64,000 nucleotides of DNA, from NCBI GenBank assembly GCA_947447625.1, contig CANFKS010000005.1, positions 1-64,000 on the forward strand. Reading direction: 5' to 3'. The notes under the pieces are model-generated. The model searched no databases and was not told the origin of the DNA. It was given only the letters and a program-made list of their open reading frames with translations. Positions within the stretch are counted from its first letter, which is position 1. Every line of letters begins with the position of its first letter. Shown here piece by piece: positions 184 to 48,121 of the stretch. A program made the position numbers and the translations under genes. Origin of the DNA: Rhodospirillales bacterium. Lineage in GTDB: Bacteria; Pseudomonadota; Alphaproteobacteria; Acetobacterales; Acetobacteraceae.

Positions 184-1482
184 ATGGCATCTTTCCGCAA
201 CTGGCTGCGTGGCGCCGGCCTGGCCGCCGCGACCGCCGCCGCCGTTTTGACCGGGGCGCATGACGCCCAGGCGCAAGCGACCATCAAGGTTGGCATCCTC
301 CATTCGCTCTCCGGCACCATGGCGATCAGCGAGACCACGCTGAAAGACGTCATGCTCATGCTGATCGAGGAGCAGAACAAGAAAGGTGGCGTGCTCGGCA
401 AGAAGCTTGAAGCCGTCGTCGTCGACCCGGCCTCGAACTGGCCGCTGTTCGCCGAGAAGGCCCGCCAGCTCATCGCCGTCGACAAGGTCGCCGCCGTGTT
501 CGGCTGCTGGACCTCGGTGTCGCGCAAGTCGGTGCTGCCGGTGTTCGAGGAACTGAACTCGATCCTGTTCTATCCCGTGCAGTACGAGGGCGAAGAATCG
601 TCCAAGAACGTGTTCTACACCGGTGCGGCGCCGAACCAGCAGGCGATCCCGGCGGTTGACTACCTGGCCAAGGAAGAAAAAGTGCAGCGTTGGGTGCTCG
701 CCGGCACCGACTACGTTTACCCGCGCACGACCAACAAGATCCTCGAGGCGTACCTGAAGTCGAAGGGCGTCAAGGACGAGGATATCATGATCAACTACAC
801 GCCATTCGGCCATAGCGACTGGCAGAACATCGTGGCCTCGATCAAGAAGTTCGGCACCGCCGGCAAGAAGACCGCCGTGGTCTCGACCATCAACGGTGAC
901 GCCAACGTGCCGTTCTACAAGGAACTCGGCAACCAGGGCCTCAAGGCGACCGATATCCCGGTTGTGGCGTTCTCGGTCGGCGAGGAAGAACTGGCCGGCA
1001 TCGACACCAAGCCGCTGCTCGGGCATCTGGCCGCGTGGAACTATTTCCAATCGGTCGAGAATGCCGACAACAAGGCATTCATCGCGAAGTGGCAGGCGTT
1101 CACCAAAAACCCGAAGCGCGTGACCAACGACCCGATGGAAGCCCATGTGGTCGGCTTCGCCATGTGGATCAAGGCGATCGAAAAGGCCGGCACGACGGAT
1201 CCGGCCGCGGTGATCGACGCGATGATCGGCATTTCGGTGCCGAACCTGACCGGCGGCTTCTCGGCGATGATGCCGAACCATCACATCACCAAGCCCGTGC
1301 TGATCGGCGAAGTGAAGGGCGATGGGCAGTTCAACGTGGTGTGGCAGACCGCCGGCACCGTGGTGGCGCAGGAATGGTCCCCGCATCTGGAAGGCTCGCG
1401 CGACCTGATCTCCGATTGGCGCGCCCCGCTCTCCTGCGGCAACTTCAACGTCAAGACGGGCAAGTGCGGCGGCAAGATGTAA
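184..1482 (+). CDS. urtA: Urea ABC transporter, periplasmic urea-binding protein
   Basis: 432-residue binding protein of the branched-chain-amino-acid/amide type I fold that delivers urea to the UrtBC permease. An N-terminal signal peptide (hydrophobic AGLAAATAAAVLTG, likely cleavage after AQA near residue 31) directs export. The mature region opens TIKVGILHSLSGTMAISE, the family's usual start, and has the UrtA-typical FGCWTSVSRKSVLPVFE and FYPVQYEGEESS segments. A strong ribosome site lies just before the ATG. It is expressed from its own sigma-54 promoter and followed by an intrinsic terminator, consistent with binding protein being needed in excess over permease. The downstream urt and urease genes make urea the near-certain ligand. 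Confidence 0.96.
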   Translation: MASFRNWLRGAGLAAATAAAVLTGAHDAQAQATIKVGILHSLSGTMAISETTLKDVMLMLIEEQNKKGGVLGKKLEAVVVDPASNWPLFAEKARQLIAVDKVAAVFGCWTSVSRKSVLPVFEELNSILFYPVQYEGEESSKNVFYTGAAPNQQAIPAVDYLAKEEKVQRWVLAGTDYVYPRTTNKILEAYLKSKGVKDEDIMINYTPFGHSDWQNIVASIKKFGTAGKKTAVVSTINGDANVPFYKELGNQGLKATDIPVVAFSVGEEELAGIDTKPLLGHLAAWNYFQSVENADNKAFIAKWQAFTKNPKRVTNDPMEAHVVGFAMWIKAIEKAGTTDPAAVIDAMIGISVPNLTGGFSAMMPNHHITKPVLIGEVKGDGQFNVVWQTAGTVVAQEWSPHLEGSRDLISDWRAPLSCGNFNVKTGKCGGKM

Positions 1483-12319: not shown

Positions 12320-12443
12320 TCAGGCGATCACACAAAGCGTTAGAGCCTGATGATTTTTGGTGGAATCACCAAAAATCTGAATCAGGCGATCAAACAAAGC
12401 GTTAGAGCGGGATGAATTCGCCTATCAGAAGGCATCCCGCTCC
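12320..12443. repeat. Dispersed two-hairpin repeat, B then A (copy 2)
   Basis: Full-length copy in the orientation opposite to 35697-35802: module B (AGAGCCTGATGATTTTTGG...CTGAATCAGGC) followed by module A (AGAGCGGGATG...CATCCCGCTCC). An extra partial module-B tail (TCAGGCGATCACACAAAGCG, 12320-12339) precedes it, suggesting an internal tandem duplication. Confidence 0.9.
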
Positions 12444-27309: not shown

Positions 27310-27408
27310 AGAGCCGGATGATTTTCGGCGCAATCGCCAAAAATCATCCGGCGATCCAGCAAAGTCTTGGAGCGGGATGCCCTCGCCCATCGGAAGGCAT
27401 CCCGCTCC
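27310..27408. repeat. Dispersed two-hairpin repeat, B then A (copy 4)
   Basis: Drifted copy: module B (AGAGCCGGATGATTTTCGG...CCAAAAATCATCCGG) keeps its stem by paired changes; module A follows (GGAGCGGGATGCC...GGCATCCCGCTCC). It lies between the convergent binding-protein and pncC genes. Confidence 0.88.
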
Positions 27409-32025: not shown

Positions 32026-32125
32026 AGCGGGATGCCTTCTGATAGGCGAAGGCATCCCGCTCTAACTCTTTGTTTGATCGCCTGATTCAGATTTTTGGTG
32101 ATTCCACCAAAAATCATCAGGCTCT
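32022..32125. repeat. Dispersed two-hairpin repeat, A then B (copy 6)
   Basis: Starts CTAGAGCGGGATGCC and ends CAGGCTCT; 104 bases identical to copy 7 at 35697-35800. The left CTAG gives smpB its stop. The two identical, directly oriented copies bracket 3.6 kb. Confidence 0.95.
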
Positions 32126-35700: not shown

Positions 35701-35802
35701 AGCGGGATGCCTTCTGATAGGCGAAGGCATCCCGCTCTAACTCTTTGTTTGATCGCCTGATTCAGATTTTTGGTGATTCCACCAAAAATCATCAGGCTCT
35801 AG
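35697..35802. repeat. Dispersed two-hairpin repeat, complete copy (copy 7, type example)
   Basis: 106 bases. Left end CTAGAGC and right end GCTCTAG are 7-bp terminal inverted repeats. Module A is a hairpin (AGAGCGGGATGCCTTC...GAAGGCATCCCGCTCT). A spacer CTTTGTTTGATCG follows, then module B (GCCTGATTCAGATTTTTGG...CCAAAAATCATCAGGC). No protein is encoded. It could be a MITE/REP-like element; the CTAG at both ends may be part of the element or a target duplication. Confidence 0.95.
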
Positions 35803-42006: not shown

Positions 42007-44004
42007 ATGGATGATCGCATGAAAGTTCACGCGTTTCTGGCCACCCCGCCTTCCCGCTTGATTGAACGCCTCGCTTTCGATGACGCGCAGCGCTTCCGCC
42101 ACAACGAACCCCAGCAGATCCGCGCCTGGGCGTGCGAAATCGACTGCCTGCGCAGCGCCCTCGCCACCTGGGCGGACGCGCTGGACTGGGATCTCGTTCT
42201 CGAATTCCCGATGCTGCGGCTTGGCCGGCGGATCGATGCCGTGCTTGTCAGCCCTCGCGTGATCCTGGTCCTCGAATTCAAGATCGGCGCCACCCGCCTT
42301 GAGACCGCCGACCGCCAGCAAGTCTGGGACTACGCGCTCGATCTGCAGGATTTCCACGCTGCCAGCCGCCACCATCCCATCGTCCCCATCCTAGTCGCGA
42401 CCGAAGCAACCCCCGGTCCCGTCACCTGGCCGATGATGCTCGCCGGCGCCACCAGCGTGATCGACGCCTCGGCGGCTTCGCTCCCGGCTGTGCTTCGCGC
42501 GCTCTGGGCCGCAGCCCCCGCGGGTATTCCCCTCGACACCGCCGCATGGGCCGCCGCCCGCTACGACCCCGTCCCCGGCATCATCGACGCAGCCCGCACG
42601 CTCTACGACCGAAACACCGTCGACGATATCGCCCAAGCCCGCGCCGGGCGCGCCAATCTCGGCGTCACCACATCAGCCATCCTCGCGACAATCGCGCAAA
42701 CCCGTGCCCAGGGCGGCCTGCATGCCCTGTTCATCACCGGCATCCCTGGTGCCGGCAAAACCCTTTGCGGCCTCAACGCGGTCTTTGGTGCCGGCCGCGC
42801 CACCCGAGCCGCTTTTCTGACCGGCAACCCGACGCTGGTTCATGTCCTGCGCGAAGCCCTTGCGCGCGATGCCGCCGGTATCGACCGCTCCCTTGCTGCT
42901 GCACGCCACCGCACCAAAACCTCCATCCAGGCGCTCCCCGCCTTCCGCGATCACCACATCGCCCATCCCGGCCACCACCCGGCCGAACACGTCATCGTCA
43001 TCGACGAAGCGCAGCGCGCCTGGTCGGCGGCCTACGCCATCACCAAAAGCCAAAGCCGCGCCATTCGCCTCACCGATTCCGAACCCGGCCACCTGCTCGA
43101 TATCATGGCCCGCCGGGCCGACTGGGCCGTCGTTGTTTGTCTGATCGGCAATGGGCAGGAGATCCATGACGGCGAAGGCGGGCTTGCCGAATGGGGCGCT
43201 GCCCTCGCCAGCCGTCCGGTCTGGGGCATCACCGCAGCCCCCGGCACGCTGAGCGACGCGACACGCCGCCAGCGCCTTCCGGCACTTCCGGGCCTCGTGA
43301 CCGAGCCGGCGCTGCATCTGGATGTCCCCGTGCGGTCCATCCGCTGTCCTGCCGGCACATCCTGGGTCGATTCGGTGCTCCGCAACGACGCGCCCACCGC
43401 TCGCGCCATCGCGGCCGCCGAGGGGCCCCTGCCCTTCGTCATCACCCGGGACCTCAGCGCCGCCCGCGGCCATTTGCGCAACAGCGCACAAGGTCTGCGC
43501 CGCGCAGGCCTGATCGCCAGTTCCGGCGCGCGCCGCCTGCGTGCCGATGGGGTCGGCGCCGAACTGCCTCACATGGACGACAAAGCCGTCGCCAACTGGT
43601 TTCTCGACCGCTGGCCCGACGTTCGCGCCTCTGACGCCCTCGAGGTGATCGCCACCGAATTTTCCTGCCAAGGGCTGGAACTCGACTTCGCCGGCCTGTG
43701 CTGGGGCGGCGATCTCATCCGCGGCCGCGACACCTGGCAGATCCGCCGCTTCGCCGGCACCGCCTGGCAACGCATCGCCAATCCCGATAAAATTGCCAAT
43801 CGAATCAATACTTACCGCGTATTGCTGACCCGCGCGCGCTACACAACCGTAATTTGGATTCCACGCGGCGATCCGGCCGACATCACGCGCCTTCCCGCCG
43901 ATTTTGACGCCGTTGCTGATTTCCTGCTCGGCTGCGGCGCTGGCACGCTCGAAACGCCGCCCCCCGTTCCGAGTATGCCGGAAGCGCAACAGGCGCTTCT
44001 GTGA
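42007..44004 (+). CDS. PD-(D/E)XK nuclease-like plus SF1 helicase (DUF2075) protein
   Basis: 665 residues. N terminus (about 40-135) looks like a restriction-endonuclease fold: RIDAVLVSPRVILVLEFKIG supplies D77...E90-x-K92, with E66 before and a downstream Gln. A DUF2075/Schlafen-type helicase follows: Walker A GIPGAGKT (245-252), Walker B VIDEAQ (about 332-336), Sensor-like VCLIGNGQEI and C-terminal motif YRVLLTRAR. Such fusions are plausible nucleic-acid-processing or defence proteins, but no known system was matched. It has no other nearby nuclease or methylase partner and ends next to a repeat. Confidence 0.75.
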   Translation: MDDRMKVHAFLATPPSRLIERLAFDDAQRFRHNEPQQIRAWACEIDCLRSALATWADALDWDLVLEFPMLRLGRRIDAVLVSPRVILVLEFKIGATRLETADRQQVWDYALDLQDFHAASRHHPIVPILVATEATPGPVTWPMMLAGATSVIDASAASLPAVLRALWAAAPAGIPLDTAAWAAARYDPVPGIIDAARTLYDRNTVDDIAQARAGRANLGVTTSAILATIAQTRAQGGLHALFITGIPGAGKTLCGLNAVFGAGRATRAAFLTGNPTLVHVLREALARDAAGIDRSLAAARHRTKTSIQALPAFRDHHIAHPGHHPAEHVIVIDEAQRAWSAAYAITKSQSRAIRLTDSEPGHLLDIMARRADWAVVVCLIGNGQEIHDGEGGLAEWGAALASRPVWGITAAPGTLSDATRRQRLPALPGLVTEPALHLDVPVRSIRCPAGTSWVDSVLRNDAPTARAIAAAEGPLPFVITRDLSAARGHLRNSAQGLRRAGLIASSGARRLRADGVGAELPHMDDKAVANWFLDRWPDVRASDALEVIATEFSCQGLELDFAGLCWGGDLIRGRDTWQIRRFAGTAWQRIANPDKIANRINTYRVLLTRARYTTVIWIPRGDPADITRLPADFDAVADFLLGCGAGTLETPPPVPSMPEAQQALL

Positions 44005-44084: not shown

Positions 44085-44126
44085 AGAGCGGAATGCCTTC
44101 GCCGATCAGAAGGCACCCCGCTCTAG
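44085..44126. repeat. Dispersed repeat, module A only (copy 8)
   Basis: AGAGCGGAATGCC...GGCACCCCGCTCTAG, in the orientation of copy 2. Lies between convergent genes; its right end CTAG supplies the TAG stop of the minus-strand ThiS/MoaD-like gene. Confidence 0.88.
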
Positions 44127-44371
44127 CCTCCACCGATCTTTGGAATCAGGAAAATCTCGCTATCGGCCGGCAATTGCAGGCCATAGGCGTCTTGATGGAT
44201 TTCGCCGTCGATTGCGATCGCCATTGTCTCATCGATATGTTCCCCCAACCCCGGAAACCGGGAATCGAGTTCGCGGATCAAGCGACGAAAACTGGTGGCC
44301 TCCACCTCGAACTCGGTCTGCTCGCCGATGAACTGGCGGCAGCTCGAGCCCGAGATGGAAACCTTGGGCAT
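44123..44371 (-). CDS. ThiS/MoaD-family ubiquitin-like sulfur carrier
   Basis: 82 residues of the beta-grasp MoaD/ThiS family (MPKVSISGSSCRQFIGEQTEFEVEATSFRRLIRELDSRFPGLGEH). The C terminus PKIGGG has the Gly-Gly needed for adenylation and thiocarboxylate formation, here with one extra Gly. Start shares one base with the stop of the molybdenum-hydroxylase gene (TGATG), so it is co-translated with that operon. It probably carries sulfur for the molybdenum cofactor, or for a sulfuration step of the enzyme. Inferred from context. Confidence 0.85.
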   Translation of the reverse strand: MPKVSISGSSCRQFIGEQTEFEVEATSFRRLIRELDSRFPGLGEHIDETMAIAIDGEIHQDAYGLQLPADSEIFLIPKIGGG

Positions 44372-46647
44372 CAGCCCTTGCCGGATTCGATGGCAGCCAC
44401 GATCTTCGGGGGCGACATCGGCAGGCTGTGCATGCGCACGCCGGTGGCCGCCTTGATCGCATTGGCCACCGCCGCGAGCGGCGGGATGATCGGCACTTCG
44501 CCGACGCCGCGCACGCCGAACGGATGGCGCTTGTTCGGCACTTCGACCAGCACCGCCTCGATCATCGGCAGATCGGACGCAACCGGGACCCGGTAGTCAA
44601 GGAAGCCCGAGTTATCCATGCGGCCGTTCTTGTCGTAGAGATATTCCTCGTTCAGCGCCCAGCCGATACCTTGGACGGCGCCGCCCTGGATCTGCCCTTC
44701 GACATAGGAGGGATGGATCGCCTTGCCGACATCCTGCACCGCGGTGTAGCGCAGGATTTTGACATGGCCGGTCTCCTGATCGACCTCGACGTCGCAGATA
44801 TGAGCGCCGAACCCGGCTCCCGCGCCCTGCGCATTGATCGAGACTTCGGAGCCGATCGGCCCGCCCGTCTTGCCGGCTTTGGCCGCGATGGCCGCGAGCG
44901 GCATCGGGTCGAACCCGCCGGCATTGGCGCCGGCCGGCACGGCCTCGCCGTCTTTCCAGTCCACCGCTTCGGGCGAGATGTCCCAGATCATGGCGGCGCG
45001 CTTCTTGAGCTCGTCCACCACTTTCTCGGCTGCCTGCACGGTGGCCATGCCCGTCGCGAAGGTGACGCGGCTGCCGCCGGTCATGCCGGTGATGCCGATC
45101 TGCGCGGTATCACCCACGATGGGGCGCACTTTTTCGTATGGCACGCCGAGCACTTCGGCCGCCATCATCGCCATCGAAGCGCGCGAGCCGCCGATATCCG
45201 GACTGCCCGACACCACGCTGATGGTGCCGTCTTCGTTCACGAACACCGAGGCCGAGCTGTCGCCGCCGATGTTGAACCAGAAGCCGGTTGCAACGCCACG
45301 GCCCTGGTTGGGGCCAAGCGGGGCCGACCAATGCGGGTGCGACTTGGCGGCATCGAGAACCTGCTCGAAGCCGATCTCGGGGAACACCGGGCCATAGGCG
45401 GCCTTGGTGCCGGCCTTGGCGGCGTTCTTTTGGCGCAGTTCGAGCGCGTCCATGCCGAGCTTGGTGGCCAGCTCGTCCATCGCGCTTTCCACGCCGAACG
45501 ACGAGATCGGCGCGCCGGGTGCCCGGTAGGCGGCGATCTTGGAGCGGTTGCTCACCACGTCGTAGCCCGAGGCGCGCACGTTTTTCAGGTCGTAGCAGGC
45601 AAAGGCGCACATGCAGGCCGGCGCCACCGGCGAGCCCGGGAAGGCACCCGCCTGGAGCGCGATGTCGATCGTCGCGCCGGTGATCGTGCCGTCCTTCTTG
45701 GCGCCGATCTTGACGGTCATCACGCCGCCCGAGGTCGGGCCGCTGGAACGGAAGACCTCGTCGCGGGTCATCACCATCTTCACCGGCTTGCCAGCCTTGC
45801 GCGACAGCGCAACCGCGAGGGGCTCGAGATAGACGAGCGTCTTGCCGCCGAAGCCGCCGCCGATTTCAGCCGGCGTGACGCGGATGTTGGCGATGTCCAT
45901 GTTCAGGATCTTGGAGACATACTGCCGGATCATGAACTGGCCCTGGCTCGACGCGAAAATCTGCGTCTGGCCATCCGGGTTCACCGAGGCGATCACGGCA
46001 TGCGGCTCGATGTAGCCCTGATGCACCGCGGTTGTCTCGTAGCGGCCCTCGACGACGACATCGGCTTCGGCCAGACCGGCCTCGGCGTCGCCCAACTTGA
46101 ACTCGACGCGCTTGGCGATGTTGGTCGGCTTGCCCGGTGCTGCCATGCCCGACGGCACCAAGTCGTCATGCAGGATCGGGGCGCCATCGGCCATCGCGGC
46201 CTCGACGTCGATCACGAAGGGCAGAACCTCGTAGGTCACGTCGATCAGCGCCATCGCCGCATCGGCGATCGCCGATGTGGTTGCGGCCACTGCGGCCACC
46301 GCATGGCCTTCGTACAGCACCTTGTCGCGCGCGAGCACGTTGTGCGCCATGTGCCGGAAATTGACGGGGCTCTCACCGGCCGCGGCTTCCTCGGAAGAAA
46401 TTTCCGGGAAATCGCCAGCAGCGGTCACGACCGCCTTCACGCCGGGCAGGGCAAGCGCCTTGGAGGCATCGATCGACACGATGCGGGCATGGGCATGCGG
46501 GCTGCGCAGAACCTTGCCGGTGAGCGTGCCGGCCATGCTCAGGTCGGCGCCGAACATCGCCTTGCCGGTTACCTTGTCGATTCCGTCCGGACGAACCGGA
46601 CGAGTACCGACGACTTTCAGATCACTGAAGTTTGCGACGAAATTCAT
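44371..46647 (-). CDS. Xanthine dehydrogenase family, molybdopterin-binding subunit
   Basis: 758 residues, molybdenum hydroxylase catalytic subunit: an a/b hammerhead N domain (VGTRPVRPDGIDKVTGKAMFGADLSMAGTLTGKVLRSPHAHARI), then the molybdopterin domains with the GGGFGGKT motif, AYRAPGAPISSFGVES and a C-terminal GVRGVGEVPIIPPL carrying the active-site Glu position. The substrate is not evident; CO dehydrogenase, nicotine- or aromatic-type hydroxylases are possible, but the CO-specific AYxCSFR loop is not seen. It is the third gene of a FAD-FeS-Mo-sulfur carrier operon. Confidence 0.93.
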   Translation of the reverse strand: MNFVANFSDLKVVGTRPVRPDGIDKVTGKAMFGADLSMAGTLTGKVLRSPHAHARIVSIDASKALALPGVKAVVTAAGDFPEISSEEAAAGESPVNFRHMAHNVLARDKVLYEGHAVAAVAATTSAIADAAMALIDVTYEVLPFVIDVEAAMADGAPILHDDLVPSGMAAPGKPTNIAKRVEFKLGDAEAGLAEADVVVEGRYETTAVHQGYIEPHAVIASVNPDGQTQIFASSQGQFMIRQYVSKILNMDIANIRVTPAEIGGGFGGKTLVYLEPLAVALSRKAGKPVKMVMTRDEVFRSSGPTSGGVMTVKIGAKKDGTITGATIDIALQAGAFPGSPVAPACMCAFACYDLKNVRASGYDVVSNRSKIAAYRAPGAPISSFGVESAMDELATKLGMDALELRQKNAAKAGTKAAYGPVFPEIGFEQVLDAAKSHPHWSAPLGPNQGRGVATGFWFNIGGDSSASVFVNEDGTISVVSGSPDIGGSRASMAMMAAEVLGVPYEKVRPIVGDTAQIGITGMTGGSRVTFATGMATVQAAEKVVDELKKRAAMIWDISPEAVDWKDGEAVPAGANAGGFDPMPLAAIAAKAGKTGGPIGSEVSINAQGAGAGFGAHICDVEVDQETGHVKILRYTAVQDVGKAIHPSYVEGQIQGGAVQGIGWALNEEYLYDKNGRMDNSGFLDYRVPVASDLPMIEAVLVEVPNKRHPFGVRGVGEVPIIPPLAAVANAIKAATGVRMHSLPMSPPKIVAAIESGKG

Positions 46648-47126
46648 GCGTGTTCCCCTCGCATTTCGGCGGCCGCGTCCATCACGGCCCGGATGATTTT
46701 GTCATAGCCCGTGCAGCGGCACAGGTTGCCGGCGAGCCAGTAGCGGGCTTCCGTCTCGGTCGGGTTCGGATTGGCATCGAGGAGCGCCTTGGTGGCGACC
46801 AGCAGGCCCGGCGTGCAGAAGCCGCACTGCAGCGCCGCATGCTCGAGGAACTTGCGCTGCAGCGGGTGCAGCTCGTCCCCATTGGCGAGGCCTTCGATGG
46901 TGCCGATGGTCTTGCCTTCGGCCTCAACGCCCAGCACCAGGCACGAGCAGACCAGACGGCCGTCGAGCGTGATGGAGCAGGCGCCGCAGTCGCCGGAGCC
47001 GCAGCCTTCCTTGGAACCGGTCAGATGCAGTTGGTCGCGCAGCACGTCGAGCAGGCTGTCCTGCACTTCGCACAGGAACTCGGCCGGCTCGCCGTTGACG
47101 GTGGTGGTGACGTGGATCTTGCTCAT
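46644..47126 (-). CDS. Xanthine dehydrogenase family, [2Fe-2S] subunit
   Basis: 160 residues, two iron-sulfur clusters: plant-type cluster EGCGSGDCGACSITLDGRLVCSC and helical domain cluster QCGFCTPGLL with LCRCTGYDKIIRAV. Passes electrons from the molybdenum centre to the FAD subunit. ATG 47126 overlaps the FAD-subunit stop and the stop overlaps the Mo-subunit start by 4 bases. Confidence 0.96.
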   Translation of the reverse strand: MSKIHVTTTVNGEPAEFLCEVQDSLLDVLRDQLHLTGSKEGCGSGDCGACSITLDGRLVCSCLVLGVEAEGKTIGTIEGLANGDELHPLQRKFLEHAALQCGFCTPGLLVATKALLDANPNPTETEARYWLAGNLCRCTGYDKIIRAVMDAAAEMRGEHA

Positions 47127-47989
47127 CAGCGGGCTCCCGCGCGGTCATAGGCGATTTTGGCGGCACGACGCGCGAGCACGCCGGCGACCTTGGTGCGGAA
47201 CTCGATGGTGCCGCGCTTGTCGTTGATCGGGTTGCAGGCAGCGCGCGCGGCGGTGTCGAGGGCGGCGAGCGCCGCATCATCGAGCTTGCTGCCCACGATC
47301 GAGGTGGCATCAACCGCAACCTGGGTCGGCGCAACCGCACCCAGAACAACGCTGGCGGCGGTGATCACGCCGGCGGCATCGAGCGTCAGGTTGACGCCGC
47401 AACCGACCACCGCGATGTCCATTTCGGTGCGCGGAATGAAGCGCAGATAGGCATCGGCCTGCTTGCCGCTCACCTTGGGGAAGTGGAATTCAAAGATGAA
47501 TTCTCCCTTGGCGAGCGATGTGCGGCCCGGCGCGGTCACGATCTGGGCGACCGGAACCGAACGCTGGCCGGTCGGGCCCACCACGACGGCGACGGCGCCG
47601 GCGGCAATCATCGCCGGCACGCTGTCGGCGGCGGGCGAGGCATTGCACAAATTGCCGGCGAGCGACGCACGGCCCTGCACCTGGGTCGAGCCGATCAGGT
47701 TGGTGCCTTCGACCACGCCCGGATAGGCTGCCGAGAAGCCGGCATGCTCGCTGAGTTCCGCGCTCGGCGTCGCCGCGCCGATGACCCAACCGTCAGCGGT
47801 TTCGCGGATCCCCATCATCCCGGGAATTTTCTTTGTGTCGACAATGAGTTCCGGCTTGGCGCGGCCGGAACGCAGTTGCACCAGCAGGTCCGTGCCGCCG
47901 GACATCACTTTGGCGAGGCCCTGGGCCCCGGCCAGCAGTTTGACGGCATCAGGCACGGAGGCAGGTGCTGCATAACTCAGTCTAGGCAT
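47126..47989 (-). CDS. Xanthine dehydrogenase family, FAD-binding subunit
   Basis: 287 residues of the CoxM-type flavoprotein. FAD-binding motif AKVMSGGTDLLVQLRSGRAKPELIVDTKKIPGM and the later VVEGTNLIGSTQVQGRASLAGNLCNASPAADSVPAMIAAGA. GGGAGCG precedes ATG 47989 and is preferred over an in-frame ATG at 48025. First gene of the operon; the start region upstream of 47990 is AT-richer and likely holds the promoter. Confidence 0.94.
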   Translation of the reverse strand: MPRLSYAAPASVPDAVKLLAGAQGLAKVMSGGTDLLVQLRSGRAKPELIVDTKKIPGMMGIRETADGWVIGAATPSAELSEHAGFSAAYPGVVEGTNLIGSTQVQGRASLAGNLCNASPAADSVPAMIAAGAVAVVVGPTGQRSVPVAQIVTAPGRTSLAKGEFIFEFHFPKVSGKQADAYLRFIPRTEMDIAVVGCGVNLTLDAAGVITAASVVLGAVAPTQVAVDATSIVGSKLDDAALAALDTAARAACNPINDKRGTIEFRTKVAGVLARRAAKIAYDRAGAR

Positions 47990-48121
47990 GTTCGCTCCCG
48001 GGTTATTACGGTCTAAGGGCTTCAATCAAACGAAAGTATGTTGCGCCCATCACGTGGTGACAGACCTCATCACCGCAAGGTTAGGCCGGTCCGGAAGGTT
48101 GGTCGAGCCCCCTTGATCGCA

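Follow-up and report, generated by a model that had tools for sequence, protein, structure and literature searches.

A Predicted Single-Chain Nuclease-Helicase of the PDC-S41 Defence-Candidate Family in Acetobacteraceae

Introduction

PD-(D/E)XK nucleases and SF1 helicases are combined in one enzyme or complex in Dna2 and in RecBCD/AddAB, and the Fe-S cluster type represented by Dna2, AddB, and Cas4 is recognised by four conserved cysteines. SLFN11, which together with SLFN14 and SLFN5 belongs to the human group III Schlafens, is an antiviral factor and also a marker of the response to cancer drugs. In the available portions of the literature, Schlafens are described as acting on tRNA and the linker of SLFN11 is assigned to residues 354-576 (PMC9482658), while the Schlafen linker is presented as a domain whose function is unknown, of mixed alpha/beta topology and bearing a helical SWAVDL motif (PMC8789055, PMC12499436); in the same portions of PMC8789055, PMC9482658, and PMC12499436 no statement of a nuclease fold for the linker was found. 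In bacterial immunity, Nhi (SERP2475) is, in the accessible text of PMC11811056, a staphylococcal single-protein nuclease-helicase system, and the label PDC designates, in the accessible sections of PMC12988326 and PMC10855318, a class of unvalidated defence candidates.

The gene described here lies in a window of 64,000 nucleotides (the window being the whole stretch of DNA that was analysed) and encodes 665 residues that make up a nuclease-like domain, a helicase, and a tail. Like the group III Schlafens SLFN11, SLFN14, and SLFN5, the protein has, by fold alignment, a linker-like domain followed in the same order by an SF1 helicase; unlike them, it has no N-terminal Schlafen core RNase domain. 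It shares with Dna2 and RecBCD/AddAB the union of a (here predicted) PD-(D/E)XK nuclease and an SF1 helicase but differs from them in that its helicase is of the Schlafen group, and, in contrast to the Fe-S type, no cysteine is present among the invariant columns of 78 sequences. Like Nhi, it is, by prediction, a single-protein nuclease-helicase; however, no PADLOC model except PDC-S41 matched the protein at E <= 1, in a database that presumably includes a Nhi model.

The Gene and Its Assignment to PDC-S41

The open reading frame starts with ATG and has exactly the bounds, strand, and length given in the original prediction (Table 1). The gene was also described there as standing alone beside a repeat among unrelated genes, and this is confirmed by its flanks: a bactofilin gene and a small lipoprotein-like gene are located upstream, while a ThiS-like gene and a molybdopterin/CoxL-type dehydrogenase operon follow downstream on the opposite strand. 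The repeat is a REP-like palindrome of 34 bases present in five copies in the 64 kb (12407-12440, 27372-27405, 32027-32060, 35702-35735, and 44088-44121), for which shuffles expect none; the last copy, 3' of the gene, has a predicted fold of -30.7 kcal/mol (z -4.66), and an Rfam search near the gene found no family. The dehydrogenase operon at 44371-48025 is of the CoxL/CoxS/CoxM molybdenum type with the ThiS-like gene alongside, and the genome of the window contains 12 CoxL-like matches.

Table 1. Coordinates of the gene, its predicted domains, and its motifs in the window.
Feature	Position	Strand	Basis
Whole gene, 665 aa nuclease-helicase (PADLOC PDC-S41)	42007..44004	+	ORF, PDC-S41 model, AlphaFold2
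Predicted PD-(D/E)XK-type nuclease domain, ~residues 1-175	42007..42531	+	Separate AlphaFold2 model, pLDDT 93.5; Foldseek and VIA-align neighbours are nucleases
Codon E66, conserved acidic residue, first core strand	42202..42204	+	E in 77/79 rows having the column
Codon D77, predicted metal ligand, second core strand (74-81)	42235..42237	+	D in 79/79
Codons E90-F91-K92, predicted ExK motif, third core strand (86-92)	42274..42282	+	E90 in 76/79, K92 in 78/79
SF1 helicase core, PF09848 SLFN-g3_helicase, residues 240-619	42724..43863	+	E 1.2e-67
Walker A, residues 244-252	42736..42762	+	G245, G248, G250, K251, T252 in 81/81
Walker B/motif II DEAQ, residues 333-336	43003..43014	+	D333, E334, A335, Q336 in 81/81
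Motif VI YRVLLTRAR, residues 603-611	43813..43839	+	Y603, R609, R611 in 81/81
Acetobacteraceae-specific variable C-terminal tail, residues 649-665	43951..44001	+	Alignments; pLDDT drops to 57-73
Terminal QQALL, candidate beta-clamp-binding peptide	43987..44001	+	Conserved tail end in close homologues

Judged by its sequence, the gene is a member of PDC-S41, a family of single-gene phage-defence candidates: residues 6-649 align to positions 9-654 of the 657 of the PADLOC model (PADLOC-DB 2.0.0, E 1.5e-216). The suggestion that it might be a single-gene system not yet described is therefore rejected, because the PDC-S41 model covers the protein and the whole architecture is already contained in that database. 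No experimental work on PDC-S41 was found in the literature searched by that name, and searches under DUF2075 or SERP2475 returned, among the papers listed, no study of this family. With respect to PDC-S41, the Acetobacteraceae members differ in two ways: the match to the model ends at residue 649, before the tail which these members carry, and they are located outside defence islands. What the present analysis adds to the knowledge of PDC-S41 is an active-site map, a family-specific tail, and a resemblance to the Schlafen linker.

The preferred reading, to which a probability of about 0.5 can be given, is that of a single-chain nuclease-helicase of PDC-S41 predicted to act on aberrant or phage DNA and perhaps tethered to replication in the Acetobacteraceae. 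The modelled anatomy, i.e., a PD-(D/E)XK-type domain with a D...ExK triad and an intact Schlafen-group-3 SF1 helicase, is secure, and from here we infer the function. The helicase would use ATP to translocate on single-stranded DNA, and this translocation would feed or license metal-dependent cutting by the N-terminal domain of aberrant DNA such as ends, forks, and phage replication intermediates; its role would lie in defence or genome surveillance and not in housekeeping repair.

The alignment underlying the conservation counts has 81 rows, the window protein and 80 loci, which are the best 80 of 580 relatives from a species-genome collection; Acetobacteraceae dominate these relatives because the best were retained first. 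One derived sequence set leaves out L027, L033, and L040, and another also L063. The AlphaFold2 model of the whole protein, built with 78 sequences, has a pLDDT of 92.3 and a pTM of 0.90.

The N-Terminal Nuclease-Like Domain

Profiles, conservation, and fold support the original prediction that a single stand-alone gene joins a nuclease-like N-terminus to a DUF2075 SF1 helicase. The D77...E90-x-K92 signature is found at the positions where it had been placed and its conservation (Table 1) goes beyond chance, the triad being complete in 76 of the 79 homologue rows that have those columns; R71, R75, D112, F116, and H117 are likewise fixed or almost so in the 81-row alignment. The first 204 residues, modelled alone, gave a pLDDT of 93.5 and a pTM of 0.89, and the predicted core is composed of a helix (35-52), strands 62-69, 74-81 with D77, and 86-92 with E90 and K92, a second helix (100-116), and a strand (124-131). 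This alpha-beta-beta-beta-alpha-beta succession matches the PD-(D/E)XK core and puts D77 on its second strand and E90/K92 on its third.

Structure prediction, one of the checks that had been proposed for this domain, returned a nuclease-like fold in the AlphaFold2 model, as did comparison by Foldseek and VIA-align. Foldseek listed McrC, ACE1, Bax1, Can2/Cdn1/Card1, EndoMS, and restriction enzymes, the best being McrC (E 0.01) and none of the 310 PDB matches reaching E <= 0.001; VIA-align of the domain alone gave Can2 (Z 8.8, rmsd 3.8, 135 residues aligned), EndoMS (7.5), VC1899 (7.5), and McrC (7.5). Nearly all the listed neighbours are nucleases or nuclease-like proteins of the PD-(D/E)XK fold, and a viral fold library returned phage nucleases of the PD-(D/E)XK type, with an unnamed protein as the best match (E 2.1e-4). 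Each of these structural matches is weak, and the sequence profiles are silent: residues 1-200 match no Pfam family, no NCBIfam model, and no PDB sequence, and a profile search of the PDB with the domain found nothing relevant. A PD-(D/E)XK-type fold of the N-terminal domain is a supported prediction. Assignment to NERD or to another named nuclease family was discarded, Pfam, NCBIfam, and PDB sequences all being without a match.

In three homologues the triad is broken with the helicase motifs intact (D-G-K in L035:9968-11935, D-K-K in L044:9968-11992, and D-R-A in L063:3339-5282); from these residues, the proteins are possible nuclease-dead forms.

The Helicase Core and the Resemblance to Schlafens

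The helicase belongs to PF09848 (DUF2075, renamed SLFN-g3_helicase), matched at 229 bits against a cut-off of 24, and this gene is the only one in the genome of the window to match the family. The core is complete, with Walker A (G245...GKT 250-252), DEAQ (333-336), and YRVLLTRAR (603-611) where they had been predicted. Matches to a phage Zot-like protein (E 0.0015) and to zeta-toxin (E 0.0029) cover the Walker A region only and were set aside.

SLFN11 heads the Foldseek matches of the whole model (E 6e-10), followed by nsp13, SLFN14, RecD of RecBCD (6sjb, E 2.7e-7), Sen1, Dna2 (5ean, E 1.5e-6), and Upf1. For the helicase part, VIA-align places UvrD (Z 18.9) and SLFN11 (7zep, Z 17.9) among the high ranks, and it pairs model residues 1..637 with SLFN11 397..899; in the entries 7zel, 9nyy, 9jr9, 9uie, and 9erd, the model from residue 1-8 to 618-637 is aligned with Schlafen residues ~393-912, i.e., linker and helicase. 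The rmsd of these five whole-model alignments is large (9-15), which may reflect differing angles between the domains.

The N-terminal domain alone is aligned by VIA-align with SLFN14 401-554 (Z 7.1, rmsd 4.0, 134 residues; a second entry Z 6.9) and with SLFN5 375-550 (Z 6.9, 142 residues), the linker scores by entry being 7.1 for 9uie, 6.9 for 9jr9, and 6.9 for 7ppj. Since a Z near 7 is within the range that the tool terms common, the kinship with the linker is argued from three points taken together: the fold class, the placement ahead of the helicase, and a helicase family common to both. Profile searches of the PDB matched SLFN11 over helicase positions 239-320 only (E 1.2) and gave nothing for the N-terminal domain, so that for the linker itself the argument is one of fold and not of sequence. 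The accessible part of PMC8789055 assigns the Schlafen linker no known function, whereas the bacterial domain retains the nuclease triad.

The same resemblance might suggest an RNA-directed enzyme that cleaves tRNA or the RNA of phages and halts translation, SLFN11 being the best whole-fold match by Foldseek and Schlafens being known for their action on tRNA in the text cited above (PMC9482658). However, the tRNA-cutting Schlafen core domain is absent, the protein starting at the equivalent of the linker, and the fold neighbours of the N-terminal domain are mostly DNA nucleases; this explanation is very unlikely, and action on DNA is the reading retained here. A wider proposal, rather doubtful as a joint claim on modelled structures, is that the bacterial family retains in working form a module which animals use again, that the linker of the group III Schlafens SLFN5/11/14 is a decayed PD-(D/E)XK nuclease, that the linker-helicase half of human antiviral Schlafens derives from a prokaryotic nuclease-helicase like this one, and that the Acetobacteraceae enzyme is also a clamp-tethered, replisome-docked immune nuclease. 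If its Schlafen part were true, it would give the unexplained linker of SLFN11 an ancestry and a testable former function.

The C-Terminal Tail

The tail was analysed in 61 closer homologues with a stop codon and at least 45% identity, the window included; L040, which has no stop in its contig, is outside this set. The contig titles are nearly all Acetobacteraceae or Rhodospirillales, with L061 labelled Myxococcus xanthus. The tails are mostly 13-23 residues long and variable in sequence; the linker residues vary while the tail end does not. In 43 of the 61, [LM][LFVI] falls within the last three residues (shuffled tails: mean 3.4, maximum 10), and Q-x-x-L-[F/L] is present in 9/61 against 0.5 in shuffles, a comparison that is not a full test because the tails are related sequences. 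Among background ORFs of the same loci, 32/742 end in [LM][LFVI] and 7/742 have Q-x-x-L-[F/L] in the last 25 residues, and only 1 of 19 distant homologues has such an ending (Fisher p 3.5e-7).

The motif is recognised in 55 tails, 43 times at the very end, closed only by L, V, or I, and 12 times 2-20 residues upstream. Six of the non-terminal motifs are QPELF, QAALF, QLPLL, QPALF, QSTLF, and EASLF, the rest being weaker forms; the very terminus of L005, which lies outside the 61-tail set, is QTSLF. The first motif position is Q in 13/55 and A in 16/55. For comparison, the C-terminus of the Pol IV homologue of the same genome, translated by eye, is QLTLGV, a standard clamp peptide. The clamp-binding consensus is, in the accessible text of PMC13254535, Q-aliphatic-x-[L/M]-[F/L], and there E. 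coli RecBCD, a helicase-nuclease, binds the clamp through QVEMEF. The window tail QQALL deviates from the strict consensus at position 2, and the homologue forms QAALF, QLPLL, and QALLL fit it.

From its sequence, the Acetobacteraceae tail resembles a beta-clamp-binding peptide and may dock on the sliding clamp, a tentative reading whose chances we put slightly below even. The terminal Leu-Leu could instead act as a degron at the C-terminus, or as a latch within the molecule, by which a harmful nuclease is kept scarce or closed; the position of the motif at the very end in 43 of 55 tails, with L, V, or I as the only closing residues, agrees with this, but the 12 motifs placed before the end, with F in 5/12 against 0/43 of the terminal ones and in QxxLF-like forms, are as expected of clamp peptides and not of a terminal degron, and the degron or latch is the unlikelier of the two. 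Under the clamp reading, the Acetobacteraceae protein would have acquired a peptide at its C-terminus for docking on the sliding clamp, and this docking would imply action at the forks of phage or damaged host DNA. The enzyme would then be an immune candidate that locates its target through the replication machinery and tells active replication from resting DNA; in the literature searched, no case that links a clamp motif with antiphage activity was found. Whether or not the clamp and Schlafen readings are right, the analysis provides PDC-S41 with a predicted active site that is defined by residue and with a set of point mutants.

Distribution, Neighbourhood, and Role

The homologues are not uniformly core genes, as indicated by a presence in 78 of 150 genomes of the family Acetobacteraceae (68 of the 126 of good quality), by sites that differ within the genus, and by a divergence far faster than that of most flanks; the control DnaN was found in 141/150. 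In several family genomes, e.g., G010, G063, G064, G146, and G165, the gene is broken up over different frames or contigs. Across the class, 8 of the 289 sampled genomes match including the window's own, hence 7 of the 288 others, one by a fragment of 56 residues; four of the 289 belong to the family of the window, three of these without a match. Only four plasmid records out of 72,556, and a single phage record out of 50,697, contain a homologue, so the gene is not visibly mobile on plasmids or phages.

G003, from the same genus, has the gene where the window has it, with the lipoprotein-like gene on one side and the ThiS/CoxL operon on the other; at this shared site the two proteins are 64% identical, with 93% for CoxL, 90% for the ThiS-like protein, 86% for bactofilin, and 61% for the lipoprotein-like protein. 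The protein tree, contrary to the shared site, groups G003 with G002 (97/96) and the own protein with G004 (84/81). In G002 and in G086, the latter from another genus, the gene is flanked on one side by a gene for a large repetitive protein, next to GNAT/FemAB-like and RidA genes, and on the other by a peptide-binding-protein gene; G001 and G004 have it between the large protein gene and the binding-protein gene too, with the GNAT gene on another contig, and in G074 and G008 it adjoins genes recognised by eye as flagellar. A possible empty ancestral site in the genome of the window is unreadable, because the contig that carries the GNAT gene stops 233 bases beyond that gene and the neighbouring binding-protein gene has a best match elsewhere of only 58%. 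Neighbour genes were called by a simple script instead of a gene finder. Identity to the own protein tracks DnaN identity (Spearman 0.64) in 58 of the 77 other positive genomes; those omitted had for the most part only a partial match, or no DnaN match that could be used. Taken together, the shared and differing sites, the identities, the tree, and the DnaN correlation seem to indicate long inheritance within the family combined with quick moving and diverging, and defence genes often move and diverge quickly.

A host DNA-repair or fork-processing enzyme of the Dna2/RecBCD kind, recruited by the clamp to resect or cut stalled forks and having no defence role, would account for a gene present in half of the family genomes, for its clamp-like tail, for the correlation with DnaN, and for ordinary neighbourhoods conserved in sub-clades, among which are the GNAT/FemAB-like and RidA group (up to 20 loci) and, at three loci of Gluconobacter, genes identified by eye as encoding glycyl-tRNA synthetase. 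Such an enzyme fits less well with a gene not found in 72 of the 150 family genomes, with 64% identity beside a CoxL of 93%, with the different clades of the own and G003 proteins at one site, and with homologues scattered on contigs titled Flavobacteriales, Phycisphaera, Terriglobia, and others; pure host repair is considered doubtful, and defence or surveillance is preferred.

The neighbourhoods, where a defence association had been expected, are divided. Around the Acetobacteraceae copies no defence island was found among 123 neighbour proteins (<=6 kb) of 17 close loci, a random draw from 61, PADLOC matching only mad3, mad8, mad2, and HEC-01A (best 1.2e-28). Among 141 neighbour proteins of 19 distant loci, in contrast, stronger families occur, namely a DpdE/ZorD-type protein (3.2e-148), SoFic (4.2e-122), RtcR (1e-80), MTase_I (1.7e-124), PDC-S05 (7.4e-157), PDC-S23 (3.4e-50), and PDC-S68 (2.9e-25), each as one protein and in a minority of loci. 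One neighbour-protein set leaves out L080:15686-21868, and of 20 distant-locus neighbours scanned by name 18 had no match, the other two (L085:6335-9679 and L081:17116-18441) giving generic helicase-type matches. The link of these neighbourhoods to defence is mixed and suggestive at best.

Two further observations concern single loci. A copy with 48% identity and no Leu-Leu tail (L061:2135-4102) is present on a contig labelled Myxococcus xanthus AM003; either it was transferred out of the Acetobacteraceae or the contig is contaminated. The large repetitive protein that adjoins the helicase gene in several genomes has about 1170 aa (L137:7665-11174 and L138:9943-13521) and shows a likeness of 78% between the G001 and G002 copies, compared with 41-60% elsewhere.
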